A DNA stretch of 25,086 nucleotides from a virus. The notes beneath the pieces are model-generated. The model saw nothing but the letters and a program-made list of their open reading frames with translations, was not told where the DNA came from and searched no databases. Both the position numbers and the translations under genes were made by a program. The stretch lies in the IMG/VR virus record IMGVR_UViG_3300009488_000071, positions 1 to 25,086 of that record; one strand, written 5' to 3'. Positions 32 through 25,086 of this stretch are shown here, one piece after another; position 1 is the first letter of the stretch; each line of letters opens with the position of its first letter.

Positions 32-86
32 TGCCAACGGTCTTGTATAAACGCCTGTTTTAATGGCGTTTTATACCGTGTTAGCA
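32..86 (+). repeat. attC-like imperfect palindrome
   Basis: An imperfect inverted repeat has outer arms TGCCAAC (32-38) and GTTAGCA (80-86) and an inner stem TATAAACGCC / GGCGTTTTATA around a loop of about 9 bases. The arms pair as TGCYAAC/GTTAGCA, and the two sides differ by a few unpaired bases. This is the architecture of integron attC recombination sites (R''-L''-L'-R' with extrahelical bases), although the outer boxes match the classical RYYYAAC/GTTRRRY consensus only in part. Similar palindromes are, from memory, common between genes in Bacteroidota chromosomes. An alternative is an ordinary intergenic repeat or terminator-like hairpin; no integron integrase is visible. Confidence 0.5.
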
Positions 87-146
87 CCCGTTTTTTTGTT
101 TTAGTAGAATTATTTTAAAAATATTTACACTTTTTTACTTAAAAAG

Positions 147-177
147 TTTGCGTGTATAAATATTTATTGTATATTTA
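147..177 (+). promoter_or_regulatory. Bacteroidota-type promoter with internal palindrome
   Basis: TTTG at 147-150 is followed after 19 bases by TATATTTA at 170-177, a one-mismatch version of the Bacteroidota -33 TTTG / -7 TAnnTTTG promoter. Transcription would begin near 184, about 20 bases before the ATG at 204. Between the two boxes lies a perfect 12-base palindrome, ATAAATATTTAT (156-167), well placed to be an operator. ATATTTACACT occurs twice, at 121-131 and 171-181, the second copy overlapping the -7 box; this could be a second protein-binding site. Confidence 0.6.
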
Positions 178-203
178 CACTATCAAATTAAAACAATAAG
201 AAA

Positions 204-383
204 ATGAACAAGCAAGAATTAAAATTAGAAATTGAAAAATTAGCAAAAGAAGAAAATATTACATTTTTAGCTGCCTGTTCAGCAATGCAAGGTGCTGCTG
301 CAAAAATGGGAAGCGAAAAAATGATAGCTATAATTTCAGAACTTAAAGAAGAATCTGATGAATATAAAGCTCTTTTTGCATAA
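204..383 (+). CDS. Small hypothetical protein, 59 aa
   Basis: A 59-residue ORF starting MNKQELKLEIEKL and ending SDEYKALFA. It is Lys/Glu-rich and looks almost wholly alpha-helical: a charged N-terminal helix (about 1-18), a central Ala-rich stretch (about 24-34) and a C-terminal acidic helix. I recognise no domain. It sits about 20 bases behind a credible promoter start, and its stop overlaps the next ATG in a TAATG junction, so the two ORFs are probably translated as a coupled pair. It is visibly more AT-rich than the phage genes to the right. It could be an antitoxin-like or regulatory peptide, or an early phage protein; nothing in the sequence decides this. Confidence 0.6.
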   Translation: MNKQELKLEIEKLAKEENITFLAACSAMQGAAAKMGSEKMIAIISELKEESDEYKALFA

Positions 384-562
384 TGAACCAAAACATAATA
401 ATACTAACAAACGGAGAATCCTACGAAGCGTGGGGTTCTCTTGTTGAGTTGTGCAAAGTAAAAGGATTTAGCTACAATTATTTGAAGCGGTTAAAATTTC
501 CGTTTGAGTACAAAGGATTGAAATTTATTCGTGTTCCGTTTCGGGCTTCAAATGGGTGCTAA
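383..562 (+). CDS. Small hypothetical protein, 59 aa, possible DNA-binding fold
   Basis: A 59-residue ORF whose ATG shares a base with the upstream stop (TAATG). The sequence begins MNQNIIILTNGESYEAWGSL and has a basic, aromatic middle (GFSYNYLKRLKFPFEYKG, about residues 29-46), then a short beta-like tail. The pattern 'SL-x-E/K-LC ... GFSY..LKR.KFPFEYKG' resembles small helix-turn-helix-like phage proteins that I recall from Bacteroidota phages, but this is memory, not a search. The last Cys codon and stop lie inside GGGTGCTAAC (554-563), the reverse complement of 80-89. With the preceding ORF it forms a two-gene unit with its own promoter. Confidence 0.6.
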   Translation: MNQNIIILTNGESYEAWGSLVELCKVKGFSYNYLKRLKFPFEYKGLKFIRVPFRASNGC

Positions 563-600
563 CGTAAGGCTAAACGCAATTAAACGATTTAGCAAACAAC
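554..600 (+). repeat. Partial attC-like site and hairpin
   Basis: GGGTGCTAAC (554-563) is the exact 10-base reverse complement of GTTAGCACCC (80-89). It is followed by an internal hairpin: GCTAAACG (569-576), an 8-base loop, then CGATTTAGC (585-593), with one bulged base. This copies the left side and inner stem of the attC-like element at 32-86. The expected right-hand GTTxxxx box is absent; the sequence there reads AACATTG. I read this as an attC-like site missing its right half. A simple hairpin after the stop codon is the alternative; there is no T tract to make it a convincing terminator. Confidence 0.4.
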
Positions 601-616
601 ATTGCCCCGTGGTAAA

Positions 617-808
617 ATGAAACAAATCAACCTCAATAGCGGAAACGAAGAAACAGTAATACCGGATAAGACATTATTACGCGCTACTGCCTTCTTTGTG
701 TTGGACAAGAACATACTACTAGCAAAAGAAAACCTAACAGTACAGTTCGGCCACTTCAATGGTTACGAAAAGCCATTAAAGCCGCTTATTGTGTTTGAAA
801 TGAACTGA
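617..808 (+). CDS. Small hypothetical protein, 63 aa
   Basis: The chosen ATG gives 63 residues starting MKQINLNSGNEETV and ending PLIVFEMN. A TTG codon at 602 could add five residues but is less likely. The protein has a polar N-terminus, then a stretch with hydrophobic beta-like segments (LRATAFFVL, about residues 20-28). I recognise no family. No promoter is obvious directly upstream. The gene lies between the cassette-like left end and the small terminase, a place where phages often carry small accessory genes. It is plausible but modestly supported as coding. Confidence 0.45.
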   Translation: MKQINLNSGNEETVIPDKTLLRATAFFVLDKNILLAKENLTVQFGHFNGYEKPLKPLIVFEMN

Positions 809-829
809 TAACTTGCACGTTTGAAGAAT

Positions 830-839
830 TTTACGTAAA
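830..839. promoter_or_regulatory. Palindrome in the leader of the small terminase gene
   Basis: TTTACGTAAA is a perfect 10-base palindrome centred 30 bases upstream of the terminase start codon. TTTG at 820-823 and a weak -7-like CTTATTTG at 848-855 flank it, but their 24-base spacing is longer than usual, so a promoter here is only possible. The palindrome may be an operator. Confidence 0.3.
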
Positions 840-864
840 TTAATGTGCTTATTTGTGAAGAGAG

Positions 865-1344
865 ATGGAAGAGAAGAAAGTAAGCGAGAAGACGATAGCC
901 AAACACAAACGAGTGATTGATGTGTGGTTATCCAATGGAGAGAACGGCACCCAGGCGTACATGGAAATTTATCCGAATTCAGAATATGAATCTGCTGACA
1001 AGTCATTCAGAAGACTGACCGAAAATGCCCGAATACAAGAATACATTGCAGAAAAGCGAAAAGAACTATCCGAAAAGACTGAAATAACAAGGGAGTCCTT
1101 AATTAATGACTTGGAAAGAGCTAAGGAGATGAGTTTAGTCCCAAACAACAGCGGCCAACCCAATACTCAAGCATACATAAAGGCCGTAGAAGCTCAGGCA
1201 AAGATGTTAGGACTCAATGAGCCGGATAAACTAGATGTCACTACTGGTGGCGATCCGATAAAGCCGCCTCCCCTTCGATTTGTTGAGAGTAGTCAAAAAG
1301 GTGCCCAAGAGTCGAACGAGTCCAACGAGAAAGTCCAGAAGTAG
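865..1344 (+). CDS. terS: Terminase small subunit
   Basis: A 159-residue protein with the layout of the Terminase_2 family. The N-terminal helical DNA-recognition domain carries the NGTQAYMEIYP segment (about residues 27-37), which corresponds to the 'NgtqAAirAGY' signature, and then 'SFRRLTENARIQEYI'. A central oligomerisation helix follows (about 60-115), with a polar, disordered Lys/Glu/Ser-rich tail. The small subunit binds phage DNA at the packaging initiation site and hands it to the large subunit. The gene is on the + strand and its last 104 bases are antisense to the end of the large terminase gene, so the usual terS-terL operon is broken by inversion. The start ATG follows GAGAG but has no clear Shine-Dalgarno site. 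Confidence 0.85.
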   Translation: MEEKKVSEKTIAKHKRVIDVWLSNGENGTQAYMEIYPNSEYESADKSFRRLTENARIQEYIAEKRKELSEKTEITRESLINDLERAKEMSLVPNNSGQPNTQAYIKAVEAQAKMLGLNEPDKLDVTTGGDPIKPPPLRFVESSQKGAQESNESNEKVQK

Positions 1345-2557
1345 CGTCAATAGCATCCTTAACCACACTCTTGTTAAGTGAATCGTCTTTCATGTAATGG
1401 GTTAAGTGCTTGATAAATTTCCCGTAAGGACTATTTGGATCATACTGTCTTTTGAATCTAAAATGGCGAAGAACAAAACCGGCCTCCATAATTATTCTGG
1501 TATGTTTGTTAGACTTCGAAACGATGGTCATAATAGAGGCTTCATGATCTTCTTCCCTTAAGCGTCTAGCGTAACCATATCCTTGGTTATTACTTTCCAC
1601 TCGAACGTATTGAATGCCGAACCTGTTTATCATATCCACAACCATAGGCATGGTAACGTCCTCTTCTTCTTGTGAGTAAACAACATCAGTGATAAACACC
1701 TCTTTACCAATTATCTGACCAACAGGCATACACAGGTAGTCATTCCCTTGGTCAGCTATATCAATGTAAGAAGCTACACCTTCGACCTTTTTGGGGTCAA
1801 AGTCTTCTTCATCAAACCAATTAAGCTGCCTTTTAGGGTAAACAACCCCTTCAGGATTCTCTAACCATCCTCCTAAGATGATGTGCCGGTATTTCTCCGG
1901 GTCTTCAATCTTCATTCGTTCATATTCCTTCAAGATGTTATCCGGAATAACTGAAGGGTCTACATCTAAATAGGAGGTATGTATGTAAAGGATATTATCA
2001 ACTATTCCGTTGTGACCTTCTGGAACACCACGCTTCTCGAATAACTCCTGAAATATCCAATGCTCCTTAGATGCTGGGTTAAGTATTAGAACACATAGAT
2101 TTCGTTTCTCATTAGAACAAATGGAGAAGTATACACGCTCAAATGTTTCGTAGTCGGGTATCTCCTCTGCTTCATCTACGATAAGGCAATTAAAGCCGGA
2201 AAGGGACTTTAGGTTAGCTGTTTGATTACTAGCTCCTGTCTTCATTCCCTTAAAAGAAACCAAACCTTCACCAACCAATGACTCTACCCTGTTACGTGTG
2301 ATTTTAGCGCAATGGTCGTACCCCAATAAATCTAATTTACTTTTGAACTCAGGAATAATAGAGTCCTGTGTGGATACGTTCGTGAATCTTGTATAAAGTG
2401 TTCTCCAATCGTACTGAATAAATGCCTCAGCACTAAACATTCCAACTCCCCAAGATTTCCCACTGAATCGGCCACCAGTAACAATGGCAATATCAACCTC
2501 TTCTGATTCGTTGTGAAGTAGTTTGAATAATGGCAGATATTTACTTGAAATATCCAT
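1241..2557 (-). CDS. terL: Terminase large subunit (ATPase/nuclease)
   Basis: A 438-residue packaging motor protein. The N-terminal ATPase has a Walker A GGRFSGKS at residues 28-35, a Walker B CLIVDEAEEI at 124-133 (Asp128, Glu129) and a coupling-motif-like LNPAS at 159-163. The C-terminal RNase H-like nuclease begins near residue 258, with ASYIDIADQGNDY supplying acidic candidates Asp266 and Asp269; a further acidic KDAID lies near residue 400. Length and motif order fit PBSX/Terminase_3-type large subunits. It cleaves concatemeric DNA and pumps it through the portal. It is the downstream gene of a two-gene minus-strand operon, starting 6 bases after the portal stop, and its 3' end overlaps the small terminase gene tail to tail. 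Confidence 0.93.
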   Translation of the reverse strand: MDISSKYLPLFKLLHNESEEVDIAIVTGGRFSGKSWGVGMFSAEAFIQYDWRTLYTRFTNVSTQDSIIPEFKSKLDLLGYDHCAKITRNRVESLVGEGLVSFKGMKTGASNQTANLKSLSGFNCLIVDEAEEIPDYETFERVYFSICSNEKRNLCVLILNPASKEHWIFQELFEKRGVPEGHNGIVDNILYIHTSYLDVDPSVIPDNILKEYERMKIEDPEKYRHIILGGWLENPEGVVYPKRQLNWFDEEDFDPKKVEGVASYIDIADQGNDYLCMPVGQIIGKEVFITDVVYSQEEEDVTMPMVVDMINRFGIQYVRVESNNQGYGYARRLREEDHEASIMTIVSKSNKHTRIIMEAGFVLRHFRFKRQYDPNSPYGKFIKHLTHYMKDDSLNKSVVKDAIDATSGLSRWTRSTLGHLFDYSQQIEGEAALSDRHQ

Positions 2558-2563
2558 ACATGA

Positions 2564-3781
2564 CTACCCTGGTAATGTGCCTAATGCTTCAGCAATAGCG
2601 TTTGACTGCTCTTCCAATGATTGCGCTCCTGCCGATCCTAGTTGATTAATCGACCTTGAAGCGTTAAGAAGTACCTCTGATTGCTCCTTCTTGTTCTTCT
2701 GTAGTATCGCTAAGTGGTCATAACTCAACCTTAGCCTTCTGTTCTGTTGATCTAATCCAAGGAAGGTTGTCAGCCCTTGGGCTAAATCTTCTCCTTCGGG
2801 AATAATGGTGTCGTTGTATGCCATAATTAACCCCTGTTTCAGATTTTCGAAGGTGGTGCCCTTGGCTCTTGGTGATATGTTGATGTTTAACCCAAGCATA
2901 TCCAGAAAATCAATGTACCCAGACTCAACCTCTTCAAACAGTCTCAATTCGTCAACAGGGATAGAGAGCTTAATAAAACCAACCTCGCCCTCATTCATCA
3001 TTATAGGAACCTGGCCTTCCTTTGTCCCAAAGTCTTTTACATACTGTTTCGATATGTTTTTCTGTTCTGTATTGCTAAACGGCAATCCCCCATCACCATC
3101 TTTACTTTTTCCAAACAAAACCCCATGAGCTCCACGCTGATTAATCAGTACATTCCTGGACCTATAAGCACCATCAACATTTGACAATGGGTATCTCAGA
3201 GCTTTAGTAATCGATTCCCCAAGTATTGGGTTGTCCAGATCACAATCAGCAAGGAGTAGCACGTCCTTAGTTTCGAATACCCTTGTTTGATTGTTTCCTT
3301 GAGGCAACTTGTATCCAAGGATTATATCTTCAATATTGGTCTGATCATAAAGTTTTCCAGATAGCGTAACCTGAATATCACCTGCCGGGAGATTTGAAAG
3401 AGTTACTGGAAGCTGATTAGATATAAGGCCCCGATTAGCGTATATGAATGAATTAGCGTAAACGTAGTATTGTTTTCTATTCTGTTTCAACCATTGTTTC
3501 CCTGTCTGAACAGGGTTGGGATTATTTAGAAGTGCCACAGCATCTCTTGCCCTTTGGTCATCTTGAAGTTCACCATCCAAATCTTCAACAACCCATTTTC
3601 CTGTGGCTGCCATTGAAGCCTTTCTGGTTACCGCTGTCTTGAATGGCGGTATGGTGTCATACATTAATCTTGAGTTGTTGGTATCAATCCACTGTTCTGT
3701 TTTTTGCCCGAGTAGATAAGAGAAACTTTGAGCGAACGGATTTAGGCTACGTCTGCCGAATAGAGTTGACCATATTCCCAT
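2564..3781 (-). CDS. Portal protein, HK97 family
   Basis: The start chosen is MGIWSTLFGRR (405 residues), typical of HK97-type portals, which often open with a short hydrophobic helix and a basic patch. The frame stays open 23 codons further up to 3850, but that stretch would begin at or before the predicted transcription start from the -7 box at 3840-3847, so the longer form is rejected. Recognisable features include the IPPFKTAVTRKA segment, the LLNNPNPVQTGKQW motif (about residues 85-98), and the central ILGYKLP and VLLLADCDLDNPILGES strands. A C-terminal helical region and a Gln/Ser-rich tail follow. The dodecameric portal forms the DNA channel at one capsid vertex. It is transcribed leftward, opposite to the protease and capsid genes. 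Confidence 0.9.
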   Translation of the reverse strand: MGIWSTLFGRRSLNPFAQSFSYLLGQKTEQWIDTNNSRLMYDTIPPFKTAVTRKASMAATGKWVVEDLDGELQDDQRARDAVALLNNPNPVQTGKQWLKQNRKQYYVYANSFIYANRGLISNQLPVTLSNLPAGDIQVTLSGKLYDQTNIEDIILGYKLPQGNNQTRVFETKDVLLLADCDLDNPILGESITKALRYPLSNVDGAYRSRNVLINQRGAHGVLFGKSKDGDGGLPFSNTEQKNISKQYVKDFGTKEGQVPIMMNEGEVGFIKLSIPVDELRLFEEVESGYIDFLDMLGLNINISPRAKGTTFENLKQGLIMAYNDTIIPEGEDLAQGLTTFLGLDQQNRRLRLSYDHLAILQKNKKEQSEVLLNASRSINQLGSAGAQSLEEQSNAIAEALGTLPG

Positions 3782-4107: not shown

Positions 4108-4828
4108 TGCGGTAGTTCTATCTGGTTCTAATGAGTTCGCAAGCAAGGCACTTCAAACTGATTTTGAAGATGACCTGTCTTTGGGTAAAATTACCCGGAC
4201 CGTTGTAGCGAATACGTATAACTGGCTAGACTCTCATGACGATGTTCACATTAAAGGACTCTTTTCCAAGTCCATTAAAGAACGTCAGTCAGAAATTTTA
4301 CACCTCCATGATCACGTTCACCAACTAACCGCTCAGGTTGGCCGCCCGCTGAAAGTCTATGAACAGGCTATTCAGTGGGCTGACCTGGGGGTTAATCTTA
4401 AAGGTGAGACTCAAGCACTTCTGTCTGATACAGAGATTCTACAGGATTACAACAAGATGATTTTCGATCAGTACCTAAATGGATTGATCAAACAGCACAG
4501 CGTAGGCATGCAGTACGTCAAACTTGACCTAGCTGTAAATGATGCTGAAGCGAAGGAGGAATTCAAGATTTGGAATGACCACATTAATGATATTGGTAAT
4601 CGTGACAAGGCTGAGGAACAAGGCTTTTTCTGGGCGATCAAAGAAGCGAAATTAATTGAATTCAGCGCAGTCATTCGAGGTTCAAACGAACTAACACCAA
4701 CCATCCAAAATACACCTAAAAGCATTGAGCCGCCAATTACCGGCACTCTAACCCCGGAGCCGCAGGAGCACTCCGACCATATGAAGGAGTTCTACCTAAC
4801 TCTATTAACCAACCAAAACCAAAGCTAA
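4028..4828 (+). CDS. Prohead protease, HK97 family (peptidase U35)
   Basis: A 266-residue protein with the core of HK97-type prohead proteases. A His-rich segment LHLHDHVHQL (residues 91-100) supplies the catalytic His, and KQHSVGMQYVK (155-165) supplies the nucleophile Ser158 in the family's SxG context. A later FSAVIRGSNELTP segment matches the conserved 'vSlVl.ganp' strand. It cleaves the capsid N-terminal scaffold domain during prohead maturation. The first roughly 60 residues precede the usual protease core, and the tail after about residue 220 is Pro/Thr/Gln-rich and probably disordered. It starts at the first ATG after an in-frame TGA at 4019. It lies 6 bases upstream of the capsid gene, the classic order. 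Confidence 0.85.
   Translation: MNDHLRNLIERKADHIRIKKAAIKHADAVVLSGSNEFASKALQTDFEDDLSLGKITRTVVANTYNWLDSHDDVHIKGLFSKSIKERQSEILHLHDHVHQLTAQVGRPLKVYEQAIQWADLGVNLKGETQALLSDTEILQDYNKMIFDQYLNGLIKQHSVGMQYVKLDLAVNDAEAKEEFKIWNDHINDIGNRDKAEEQGFFWAIKEAKLIEFSAVIRGSNELTPTIQNTPKSIEPPITGTLTPEPQEHSDHMKEFYLTLLTNQNQS
4811..4827 (+). repeat. Capsid-flanking repeat, left copy
   Basis: AACCAAAACCAAAGCTA matches the right copy at 6141-6157 at 16 of 17 positions. This copy forms the last codons of the protease gene and ends 7 bases before the capsid ATG. Confidence 0.6.
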
Positions 4829-23397: not shown

Positions 23398-24504
23398 ATG
23401 GGAAAGAAGACCAAAGTAAACATACCGGATGACATTTGTCGTCAATTAGGAATTAAAACCAACAACTGTGGTGAGTACCGAGTTGATAAGGAAACCTTGA
23501 ATAAGGTCAGGATTCTAAAATTCCAAAAAACACACCAAGGAGATCACGATGCTTTAATTACGGAGTGCGAAAGGCTTGGTATTCCAGTTGAAAGTGTTTC
23601 TCATTACTGGTATAAGGGAAAGCATTTCTCTATAAACGTTAAGAATAAGAAAGAATCAATGCTGGACCTACAAAAGGTGTTGATTGATGAACTTTCTAAC
23701 TATTCCCCTAAATATCCAAAAGTAAAACGTAGTCGGTCTAAAGACCCGCATTTGTTGGTAGTCGATCCGGCAGATGTTCACATAGGAAAGTTGTGTACTT
23801 CCTTTGAGTCAGGGCAGGACTACAACAACCAGATTGCAGTTAAGAGAGTGAAAGAAGGTGTTCAAGGGATACTTGATAAATCACATGGGTTTGATATTGA
23901 CCGGATTATGTTTGTGGGAGGGAATGATATTTTACACATCGATACTCCACAAAGGAAAACTACTTCTGGAACACCACAAGACACTGATGGTATGTGGTAC
24001 AATAACTTTCTTCTAGCTAAGAAGCTCTACGTAGACATTCTCGAACAGTTAATGACTGTAGCAGATGTTCATTTTGTGTTCAACCCAAGTAATCACGACT
24101 ATACAAATGGGTTCTTTTTGGCAGATGTAGTTAAAACACATTTCCAATACTGTTCAAACATAACCTTTGATTGTTCTATTGCTCACAGAAAGTACTTCTC
24201 TTACGGTAATAACCTGATAGGTTCTACTCATGGAGATGGAGCAAAGACCAATGATTTGCCGCTGCTTATGGCTAATGAATCTAAAGACTGGACTAGGTGT
24301 AAACATCGCTACATGTATACCCATCACGTGCACCACAAAACATCAAAGGATTTTCCAGGGGTAACGGTGGAGAGTTTGAGAAGTCCGTCCGGAACTGACT
24401 CTTGGCACCACAGAAACGGATATCAACATGCTCCGAAAGCTGTAGAAGGATTCATTCACCACCCCGAACATGGGCAGGTAGCGAGATTAACCCATATCTT
24501 CTAA
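23398..24504 (+). CDS. Calcineurin-like metallophosphoesterase
   Basis: A 368-residue protein with a full set of metallophosphoesterase motifs: DVH (Asp126, His128) in LVVDPADVHIGK, GGND (174-177), NPSNHD with Asn232 and His233, THGDG with His278, and HHVHH (309-313) as the terminal metal-binding motif. These predict a two-metal phosphodiesterase active site. Residues 1-110 are a separate N-terminal part, with a helical region about 31-75 that could be a small DNA-binding or regulatory domain. The substrate is unknown; nuclease activity on DNA is the likeliest guess for a phage. It is the last rightward gene, 14 bases after the holin-like gene, and its 3' end overlaps the integrase gene by 18 bases tail to tail. 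Confidence 0.85.
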   Translation: MGKKTKVNIPDDICRQLGIKTNNCGEYRVDKETLNKVRILKFQKTHQGDHDALITECERLGIPVESVSHYWYKGKHFSINVKNKKESMLDLQKVLIDELSNYSPKYPKVKRSRSKDPHLLVVDPADVHIGKLCTSFESGQDYNNQIAVKRVKEGVQGILDKSHGFDIDRIMFVGGNDILHIDTPQRKTTSGTPQDTDGMWYNNFLLAKKLYVDILEQLMTVADVHFVFNPSNHDYTNGFFLADVVKTHFQYCSNITFDCSIAHRKYFSYGNNLIGSTHGDGAKTNDLPLLMANESKDWTRCKHRYMYTHHVHHKTSKDFPGVTVESLRSPSGTDSWHHRNGYQHAPKAVEGFIHHPEHGQVARLTHIF

Positions 24505-25086
24505 GGGCTTAATTATCTCCCAATGCGCCTTATCTCTAACCTCTTCTGGATAACGATCTTTATAGTAGTTGTCTATATCGTCTCTTTCATGGGCCATTAA
24601 TTCCCGGATAAGGTCCACTTCAAGGAACAAACTCTTAGCAATATTGGCAAAGGTGTGCCTCGACAACTTCCAGCCTAAGTTGCCAATGCCGCGAGGGGAC
24701 AACCTTATACCTAGCTTCTTCTGAACATTGATAAGCTCATCGTAGTGGTTTCTCTTAAATGTATTGTACCCTGTAAAGTCTTTTCTGCCTTTTAACAGGT
24801 ATTCATCATTCTCAGGTGCCTTTAGACGCTCTATAATGTCTTTAGCGCAATCAAATACCCGCATATCGAATTCATATCCATCCTCATGCCTCTTGTGTCT
24901 AGTAAAGAACACCCTATCATTAAAATAGTCTGTCTTCTTCAGGTAGTAAACATCTTTCAAATCTTGCCCACCTAAGTAAAAACTAAGCATCCAAATATCC
25001 CGAGCTCTGGATTGAGTTCCACTTAGTTCTGCATCCCTGAACAATTGAAGCGATTTTCTATCAAGGTATTTCGGACGCTTGGCATA
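24487..25086 (-). CDS. int: Tyrosine recombinase/integrase, C-terminal part (cut by window edge)
   Basis: The reading frame is open to the right edge, so only the last 199 residues are seen; the first visible residues are YAKRPKYLDRKSLQ. It is the catalytic domain of a tyrosine recombinase: RARDIWMLSFYLGGQDLKDVYYL aligns with the first catalytic box, KLSRHTFAN holds the RH pair, ELMAHERDD the second His and DNYYKDRY the nucleophile Tyr. Arg I appears to be Gln (GGQ instead of GMR), and the His three residues before Arg II is Lys. The CTnDOT integrase of Bacteroides is also known to lack Arg I. It would mediate phage integration and excision, implying a temperate life style. Confidence 0.85.
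   Translation of the reverse strand, partial: YAKRPKYLDRKSLQLFRDAELSGTQSRARDIWMLSFYLGGQDLKDVYYLKKTDYFNDRVFFTRHKRHEDGYEFDMRVFDCAKDIIERLKAPENDEYLLKGRKDFTGYNTFKRNHYDELINVQKKLGIRLSPRGIGNLGWKLSRHTFANIAKSLFLEVDLIRELMAHERDDIDNYYKDRYPEEVRDKAHWEIIKPLEDMG

Follow-up and report, generated by a model that had tools for sequence, protein, structure and literature searches.

Classical integron cassettes are promoterless; the integrase IntI inserts them behind a platform promoter, the choice of attC strand being linked to cassette-gene expression, and an additional segment is described as required for IntI activity (PMC2727003). In sedentary chromosomal integrons, arrays lie beside the integrase gene, with attC sites of 57–142 nt and a complement of 9–11 nt (PMC2727003). 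Integrons or intI genes are already known in Bacteroidota (PMC8618304, PMC2426708), and IntegronFinder 2.0 reported one complete Bacteroidetes integron, in Salinibacter, besides those of Chlorobi and Ignavibacteriae (PMC9024848). Phage attC sites and CALINs (at least two attC sites, integrase absent) have also been described: 17 CALINs were counted, IntI1 recombined five of the six phage attC sites that were assayed, and divergent attC directions were noted in Polaribacter phage P12002L (Qi 2023, PMC9892861). The main text of that paper contains neither 'Bacteroid-' nor 'Flavobact-', and its abstract, introduction and section 3.4 are without the family described here. Among the titles and abstracts listed by our search, which covered open-access literature, none dealt with flipped phage cassettes or with phage-encoded sets of integrase, attI and array.

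The window analysed here is the whole of an IMG/VR record of 25,086 bases, a tailed-phage contig encoding small and large terminase subunits, a major head protein, a tape measure protein, an endolysin and an integrase. Its first 600 bases are AT-rich, with a GC content of 28–34% compared with mostly 39–45% at 750–3,000. Positions 39–563 are very probably one complete integron-type cassette inserted in a tailed phage, with the hairpin at 39–89 as its attC and with genes pointing away from that attC. The features are as follows.

About 39–563, minus strand: in all probability a complete integron-type cassette of 525 bp, a unit conserved between unrelated flanks in five relatives (L005, L006, L007, L008 and L013), its hairpin tracking the right-hand segment
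32–89, plus strand: attC-type site of 58 nt, the match to our covariance model R1 including the flanking AAC, recognized by its fold, a score of 52.9 bits and covariation in 63 aligned sites
36–38, plus strand: AAC (GTT on the opposite strand), the probable recombination point, where the left flanks of relatives change; the boundary in Flavobacterium phages mumin6-1 and mumin6-4 is identical
80–89, plus strand: GTTAGCACCC box, complement of 554–563
104–181, plus strand: promoter-like leader with a 28-nt direct repeat (104–131 and 154–181), kept in copies that have other ORF1 genes
204–383, plus strand: ORF1, 59 aa, variable cargo, matching phrog_20811 (unknown function) at E 5.5e-4
383–562, plus strand: ORF2, 59 aa, conserved phage protein, its final codons and stop inside the cassette box
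554–563, plus strand: GGGTGCTAAC box, the first cassette bases on the minus strand, containing the ORF2 stop codon (560–562)
564–616, plus strand: right flank, forming the leader of the following phage gene, without a convincing attC by fold and R1 score; L005 has a similar AACGATTTA leader to the right of its cassette
24487–25086, minus strand: the window's own integrase, cut by the right contig end, with a weak match to phrog_216

On the plus strand the order is hairpin, GTTAGCACCC, promoter-like repeats, ORF1, ORF2 and GGGTGCTAAC; read on the minus strand, the cassette starts with GTTAGCACCC (563–554) and has attC at its 3' end (89–39), with both genes backwards. A first-pass annotation, made from the letters of the window, had described a palindrome at the left edge, and it is indeed present: AAC is followed by a 6-nt spacer, a left arm (45–55), a loop (56–64), a right arm (65–76) and then the GTTAGCACCC box. 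The core boxes AAC (36–38) and GTT (80–82) thus enclose inverted pairing arms, as in attC sites, and the 58 nt fall within the attC length range. The right (3') arm holds a single unpaired T on the plus strand, at a place where most rows of our alignment A1 are gapped, and the classical extrahelical bases are partly seen, no more. As single-stranded DNA, 20–100 gave a better fold than any of 200 shuffles, with z −3.0 for one strand and −3.4 for the other. The annotation's two co-oriented ORFs also stand, neither of them matching any Pfam family, as does the exact complementarity between 554–563 and 80–89, for which a chance expectation of ~0.0013 was calculated in 3 kb. The complement runs for 10 nt (cassette starts pair with the R'' box over 7, often 9–11 nt) and ends in a G/A mismatch at position 11, like the relatives; the same pattern read backwards has zero occurrences in the record. 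Whereas a classical cassette gene is promoterless and directed towards attC, the two genes here point away from it and are preceded by the promoter-like leader. We infer that this leader acts as a promoter, and the unit could therefore be expressed wherever it lands.

The annotation had placed the cassette's own attC at the right end and had suggested that incoming phage DNA may have cut the cassette. The right-hand GTT is missing as stated, no GTT occurring between 563 and position 700, but the inner hairpin claimed past 563 did not hold up: 540–620 folds like shuffles (z 0.01 and −0.4), and 545–600 gives z −1.05. The fold proposed for both ends was accordingly found on the left and not on the right. 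R1 divided them in the same way, with 52.9 bits for the left site, whose row belonged to the training alignment A1, and 9.6 bits for the right stretch (match 554–607, E 0.022 in an unfiltered search of 221 bases). An Rfam scan over 1–1400 returned zero matches, and BLAST of 1–870 against named phages gave weak matches alone (best E 2e-3). The contig ends 31 nt left of the R1-matched site. R1 finds one site in the window at an E cutoff of 0.05, a count below the two attC sites of a CALIN, and the intI, attI and array of a complete integron are not found together in the window, which is a contig fragment. No member of the cassette-linked recombinase family described below was found within the 25 kb, and no attI-like TAT..TATA motif adjoins the cassette. 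The window's integrase fragment matched no NCBIfam family at 1e-5 and has GGQDLKD in place of the usual arginine motif. The terminase genes are unusual in being convergent with an overlap of ~100 bases (small, 865–1344, plus strand; large, 1241–2557, minus strand).

The cassette recurs as a unit. The five relatives share the frame of hairpin, GTTAGCACCCGTTTTT, promoter-like leader, variable first part, ORF2 and GGGTGCTAACG, followed by unrelated DNA, in segments of 483–621 bases. Their hairpin loop is TCGTTTTAATG, and that of the window is CTGTTTTAATG. In the variable first part, the window's ORF1 recurs in L005, and the remaining relatives have different genes. ORF2 is 84–93% identical in eight viral contigs and has 19 relatives overall. 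Comparison of the right side showed the right-hand box to be absent beside the ORF2 relatives of L009–L012, so the box does not come with the gene family. To the right of GGGTGCTAAC, each of the five relatives has different DNA, and a hairpin occurs there in two only (L006 and L007). On the left, the flanks of the relatives diverge at AAC; the window holds 35 bases left of the site, and its own left flank is too short to judge. Since all five relatives lie in viral contigs with unrelated flanks, an interrupted host array is not shown.

The hairpin belongs to a large family. The pattern TCGTTTTAATG-N(8-24)-TGTTAGC occurs in at least 120 viral stretches, some of them duplicates and roughly a dozen of them, judged by eye, apparently chance matches. 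"Viral" here denotes classing by IMG/VR; a capsid gene was checked in 12 large contigs, and a T4-type capsid gene scored over the cutoff in 8 of them. The elements were found first through the loop motif, and conservation of the loop is in part a product of that selection. Alignment A1 holds 63 sites including the window and demanded stems of at least 8 pairs, the window row being exempt; without the stem filter, 72 of 100 distinct pattern matches still have an ungapped stem of at least 8 pairs. Among the 63 aligned sites, two-sided changes occur at 10 of 11 inner stem pairs, with 205 double-change cells observed versus 58 ± 9 in shuffles, and pairing reaches 94% in the true structure versus 30–49% in slid structures. 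A 10-nt complement lies downstream of 39 of 119 hairpins compared with 1 of 119 in the upstream control, and a complement of the left box lies upstream of 28 of 119 compared with 2 in the downstream control. The covariance-model match and the complementarity in relatives, whose absence the annotation had named as evidence against itself, are thus both present, and the start-to-end complementarity that it took for the cassette rule recurs across the family. Some contigs carry multiple R1 sites, such as L184 and L138 with five each and L173, L142 and L160 with four each. Two long attC-like sites of ~90 nt were seen together with a short R1-type one in viral contigs L018 (2295–3801) and L019. A genome-collection scan for a partial loop plus GTTAGCACCC returned 44 stretches, which by eye were chance, largely in coding sequence, and were set aside.

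Because a cassette with its attC on the left and one with its attC on the right look alike in arrays, the test lies in what the hairpin travels with. Among 7,021 pairs of contigs from 119 distinct hairpins (a set that excludes the window, which the filter missed), 149 share the right-hand segment only, and 46 of these have near-identical arms, compared with 6% of 6,868 background pairs; three pairs share the left flank only, with similar arms in none. The hairpin is therefore part of the right segment, in many cases together with the spacer on its left, and the left boundary of the unit is AAC. Cassette direction was read from the mark at position 11. For 72 viral R1 matches with a 9-nt downstream complement, the complement is exactly 10 nt long in 46, 9 nt in 23 (mostly with T/A there) and longer in 3; the first mismatch of the 46 exact-10 pairs, window included, is G/A in 37, T/A in 8 and A/G in 1 in hairpin orientation. 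In 14 chromosomal pairs, 6 are exactly 10 nt long, all G/A, and 8 end at 9 nt; the genes run the opposite way. As the hairpin travels with the right segment and the site has minus-strand polarity, the attC chosen by the annotation is the wrong one and the cassette looks complete, contrary to the proposed cut. What had been observed was thus partly confirmed, being largely real with the orientation reversed, and its interpretation as integron-cassette architecture with a truncated host cassette is partly supported.

Gene orientation differs sharply between viral and chromosomal cassettes. Taking the longest ORF, rather than annotation, to give the strand, the ORF runs against cassette direction in 84, along it in 12 and is absent in 1 of 97 cassettes from viral contigs, whereas in 37 chromosomal loci it runs along in 98 and against in 9 of 107 (Fisher's exact p 7.5e-33 for 84/12 versus 9/98, with cassettes treated as independent, which they are not fully). 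Isolate phages gave 12 flipped and 3 along (15 cassettes, seven loci), and the control stretches gave zero cassette pairs. The same tendency appears around the 166 viral R1 matches that remain from 169 after removal of three in duplicate loci: the main ORF to the right is on the plus strand in 139, minus in 23 and absent in 4, and to the left plus in 125, minus in 32 and absent in 9. For 16 chromosomal R1 matches, it is minus in 15 and absent in 1 on either side. The window cassette belongs to this large Bacteroidota-phage pool, whose genes are flipped relative to normal integron cassettes. Such a pool is unexpected, because strand choice in classical integrons is tied to expression of the cassette genes (PMC2727003).

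Within this pool, some phages seem to have integrons of their own. When the viral loci were searched for motifs, two tyrosine recombinases of this kind came up, in L101 and L184, and each of them immediately follows an array; the proteins of L101, L184, L322 and L366 are 266–270 aa long. Scanning viral contigs with the L101 and L184 proteins aligned with two chromosomal ones gave 223 relatives, of which 80, including the query contigs, were kept; 17 with <1 kb of upstream DNA were dropped and 63 were examined, with near-duplicate loci counted separately (for example L304–L306, L314/L315, L362/L363, L368/L369, L184/L293 and L295/L345). Complements of GTTR words are concentrated upstream of the recombinase (300 of 2,669) compared with downstream (33 of 2,538), the control motif giving 64 and 92. 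At least one cassette-like pair lies upstream in 62 of 63 loci and at least two in 57, compared with at least two downstream in 11 of 61; the last pair ends within 120 nt of the start of the recombinase match in 45 of 63. In 51 recombinase loci, where near-duplicates also remain in part, R1 found 117 sites, all on the recombinase strand and one of them downstream of the gene. In 16 loci selected for alignment, the attI-like TAAC|TATnnTATAT stands after the last cassette end (third T in 15); L300, L314, L327 and L329 are examples of departures. In 40 of 53 loci, a distance of 36–61 nt separates the last cassette end from the start codon or match start downstream of it; the end lies elsewhere in 4 and is undetermined in 9. 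Upstream of 57 recombinases, 143 distinct cassettes (median 268 bp) have G/A polarity in 143 cases and A/G in 0, only these letters being counted; their ORF is flipped in 120, not flipped in 4 and absent in 19.

The best family for these proteins is NF040815 (XerA / integron integrase), with 228 bits for chromosomal L247 (cutoff 220), 218 for L242 and 168–186 for three phage proteins. The predicted fold of a phage recombinase (mean pLDDT 78, pTM 0.62, supporting the family and not the detail) lies near 5hxy and IntI4 2a3v, with XerA and IntI4 about equal. No IntI-specific segment was found in the related phage and chromosomal recombinases. IntI4 aligns with the chromosomal proteins in two blocks, with IntI4 residues 187–244 having no counterpart in L247. 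The spacing between catalytic arginine motifs is 86–88 residues in 79 of 81 viral loci and 92–93 in 30 of 32 chromosomal loci (2 unscored), compared with 135 in IntI4, counted by hand on the alignment, and it is this short spacing that argues for absence of the segment. Distant relationship to the L184 recombinase (37–39%) does not imply an integron, since Polaribacter phage Freya and Cellulophaga phage Ingeline encode such relatives with no array and no R1 site. The sequence TTGTTGCTAACACCC is common to both (L372, L373), ~50 nt before the integrase gene, and is perhaps an empty or different attachment site.

Counterparts occur in Flavobacteriales chromosomes. R1 matched at E ≤ 1e-4 in 32 of 296 genomes; the integron integrase family TIGR02249 matched at E ≤ 1e-30 in 58 of 296 and above its own cutoff in 0 of 296. 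In 30 integrase loci, R1 gave 8 matches at E ≤ 1 spread over 8 loci, compared with none in 9 control stretches. To these 30 loci were added L242 and L247, chosen as already known R1 carriers. GTTR 9-mers have a downstream complement in 190 of 3,418 cases in these 32 loci versus 13 of 884 in the controls, the control motif differing little (140 of 5,383 versus 39 of 1,810), and at least three complements are found in 24 of 32 integrase loci versus 1 of 9 controls. In L242 and L247, same-strand genes come after an integrase of 375 and 366 aa, respectively, with attC-type sites between several of these genes. Runs of ~8–10 units with gaps of ~125 nt stand beside a Xer/IntI-like integrase in L262, L263 and L273, among others, and integrases adjoining arrays have open frames of 310–385 aa, short arginine-to-arginine spacing and scores below the TIGR02249 cutoff. 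A nearly identical 282-aa gene occurs twice in one array (L247, 5527–6375 and 8610–9458), which looks like a duplicated cassette. Several ORFs of L241 start MIKFFRKIRQ, a recurring small protein family filling several cassettes in one chromosomal region.

Isolated phages provide one case of presence and absence. The early regions of mumin6-1 and mumin6-4 differ by one 506-bp unit, present in the former and absent in the latter: mumin6-4 has GGTTAAC directly followed by GTTATCAGG, and mumin6-1 has GGTTAAC, then GTTTGG, the gene and GCATAAC, and then GTTATCAGG. Read by eye, the unit consists of a long attC-type site and then one gene, in the flipped arrangement. Also by eye, on the minus strand of L193 (mumin6-1) at ~4190–4700 the long attC overlaps the gene start, with the start codon in the loop region and the GTT box in coding sequence. 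A 10-nt complement search of mumin6-1 found 9 pairs on one strand and 12 on the other, several of them adjacent, versus 1 and 1 for the control motif. As both unit ends share the 7-nt TAACGTT, the pair does not prove an enzyme, and slippage or homologous recombination could account for it. Differences between the tail genes of mumin phages were discarded as cassette events because they lie outside the cassette region. P12002L has six R1 matches, all at E ≤ 3e-4 (60, 54 and 48 bits and three weaker); one attC site of this phage, which may or may not be among the six, recombined with IntI1 (Qi 2023, PMC9892861). Of the closely related Nonlabens phages P12024S (L194) and P12024L (L252), a single one carries a methyltransferase segment, with an AAC boundary and a hairpin of opposite polarity; the pair was not counted as support because its polarity breaks the flipped rule and its ends are less clean. 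A term search of the papers on the mumin phages (PMC7077304) and on Tenacibaculum phage JQ (PMC11267871) found no mention of integron, attC or cassette.

Three other readings of the window were weighed, and a terminator hairpin, a MITE and a truncated host cassette were considered and rejected. In the one closest to the annotation, the hairpin on the left serves as attC for a host cassette lying upstream, which would start GTTGGCAA, and the cassette's own attC at 554–600 was truncated by incoming phage DNA. The complementarity of start and end is identical in this arrangement and in the one that we favour, and the lack of GTT on the right and the weak match at 554–607 fit it; the hairpin nevertheless tracks the right-hand segment (46/149 versus 0/3), the right stretch folds no better than chance, the same right boundary meets different DNA in five viral relatives, and the position-11 mark has the other polarity. 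This reading is already disfavoured, and we regard it as very improbable. A transposon or MITE, with the 10-mers as terminal inverted repeats, or a single-strand element like IS200/IS605 with an end hairpin, would account for the hairpin at one end, the inverted 10-mers and the AAC found at each boundary. It has hardly any probability given that the ends vary between elements and yet co-vary, that the hairpin lies outside the 10-nt ends, that by eye no flank repeat extends beyond AAC in the window or its relatives, that ORF1 and ORF2 lack a Pfam match and no transposase is seen, and that similar units stand in head-to-tail arrays.

Phages have mosaic genomes, and modules may be swapped by homologous or replicative recombination at short ends, in which case the attC-like sites would be relics or transcription signals with no recombinase acting now. 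The absence of the family's integrase from the window and the 7 nt common to both ends in the mumin pair are in keeping with such swapping, which we nonetheless think unlikely in view of the covariation of the stems, the 10-nt complement with its recurrent mismatch, and the placing of cassette pairs upstream rather than downstream of the recombinase, close to its start. For the complete cassette with its attC at 39–89, we envisage that the host or another phage would supply, in trans, a Xer/IntI-type tyrosine recombinase, which would bind the folded plus strand of attC, here also the gene-sense strand, and recombine between AAC and G (GTT on the opposite strand). The unit would be excised, circularised and inserted by this recombinase. 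The flipped polarity may be a way of keeping cassettes transcribed along with the phage genes. Against this explanation stand the lack of a family recombinase in the window, the breaks in the flipped rule (12 of the 97 viral cassettes, 3 of the 15 from isolates and the methyltransferase site of P12024S), the 23 of 72 viral complements that end at 9 nt, the partial extrahelical bases, the 7 nt shared by the mumin ends and the reading of the mumin site by eye.

Collectively, these observations suggest that large Bacteroidota tailed phages run integrons of their own, with a Xer/IntI-like recombinase of ~266–270 aa without the IntI segment, a conserved attI-like site some tens of bases ahead of the recombinase start codon and arrays of short flipped cassettes, that their hosts hold a sister type of ordinary polarity, and that the window cassette is a traveller from this phage pool that landed in a smaller, enzyme-less phage; we consider this wider picture likely, if by some way less than firmly established. 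If it is true, capture of folded attC sites is separable from possession of the IntI segment and from Pc expression of cassettes, phages gain an organised means of exchanging small genes and DNA methyltransferases, and the origin of single-strand-hairpin use by a tyrosine recombinase becomes open to natural comparison.

The phage attC sites and CALINs described by Qi 2023 (PMC9892861) resemble the present elements in their hairpin sites, AAC/GTT boxes and occurrence in phage genomes, P12002L included; here, by contrast, one loop pattern alone yields at least 120 viral stretches, with genes mostly flipped relative to attC. Sedentary chromosomal integrons have arrays like those seen here in Flavobacteriales, but the integrase here is without the IntI segment and the phage genes run against cassette direction. 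As in class 1-type integrons, phage cassette direction leads away from the 5' end of the recombinase gene, beside an attI-like site, whereas the phage genes point towards a recombinase that is Xer/IntI-like and 266–270 aa long. XerA-type recombinases serve chromosome resolution; the phage recombinases share with them the best-matching family, NF040815, and a predicted fold near 5hxy, but are tied here to cassette arrays instead.
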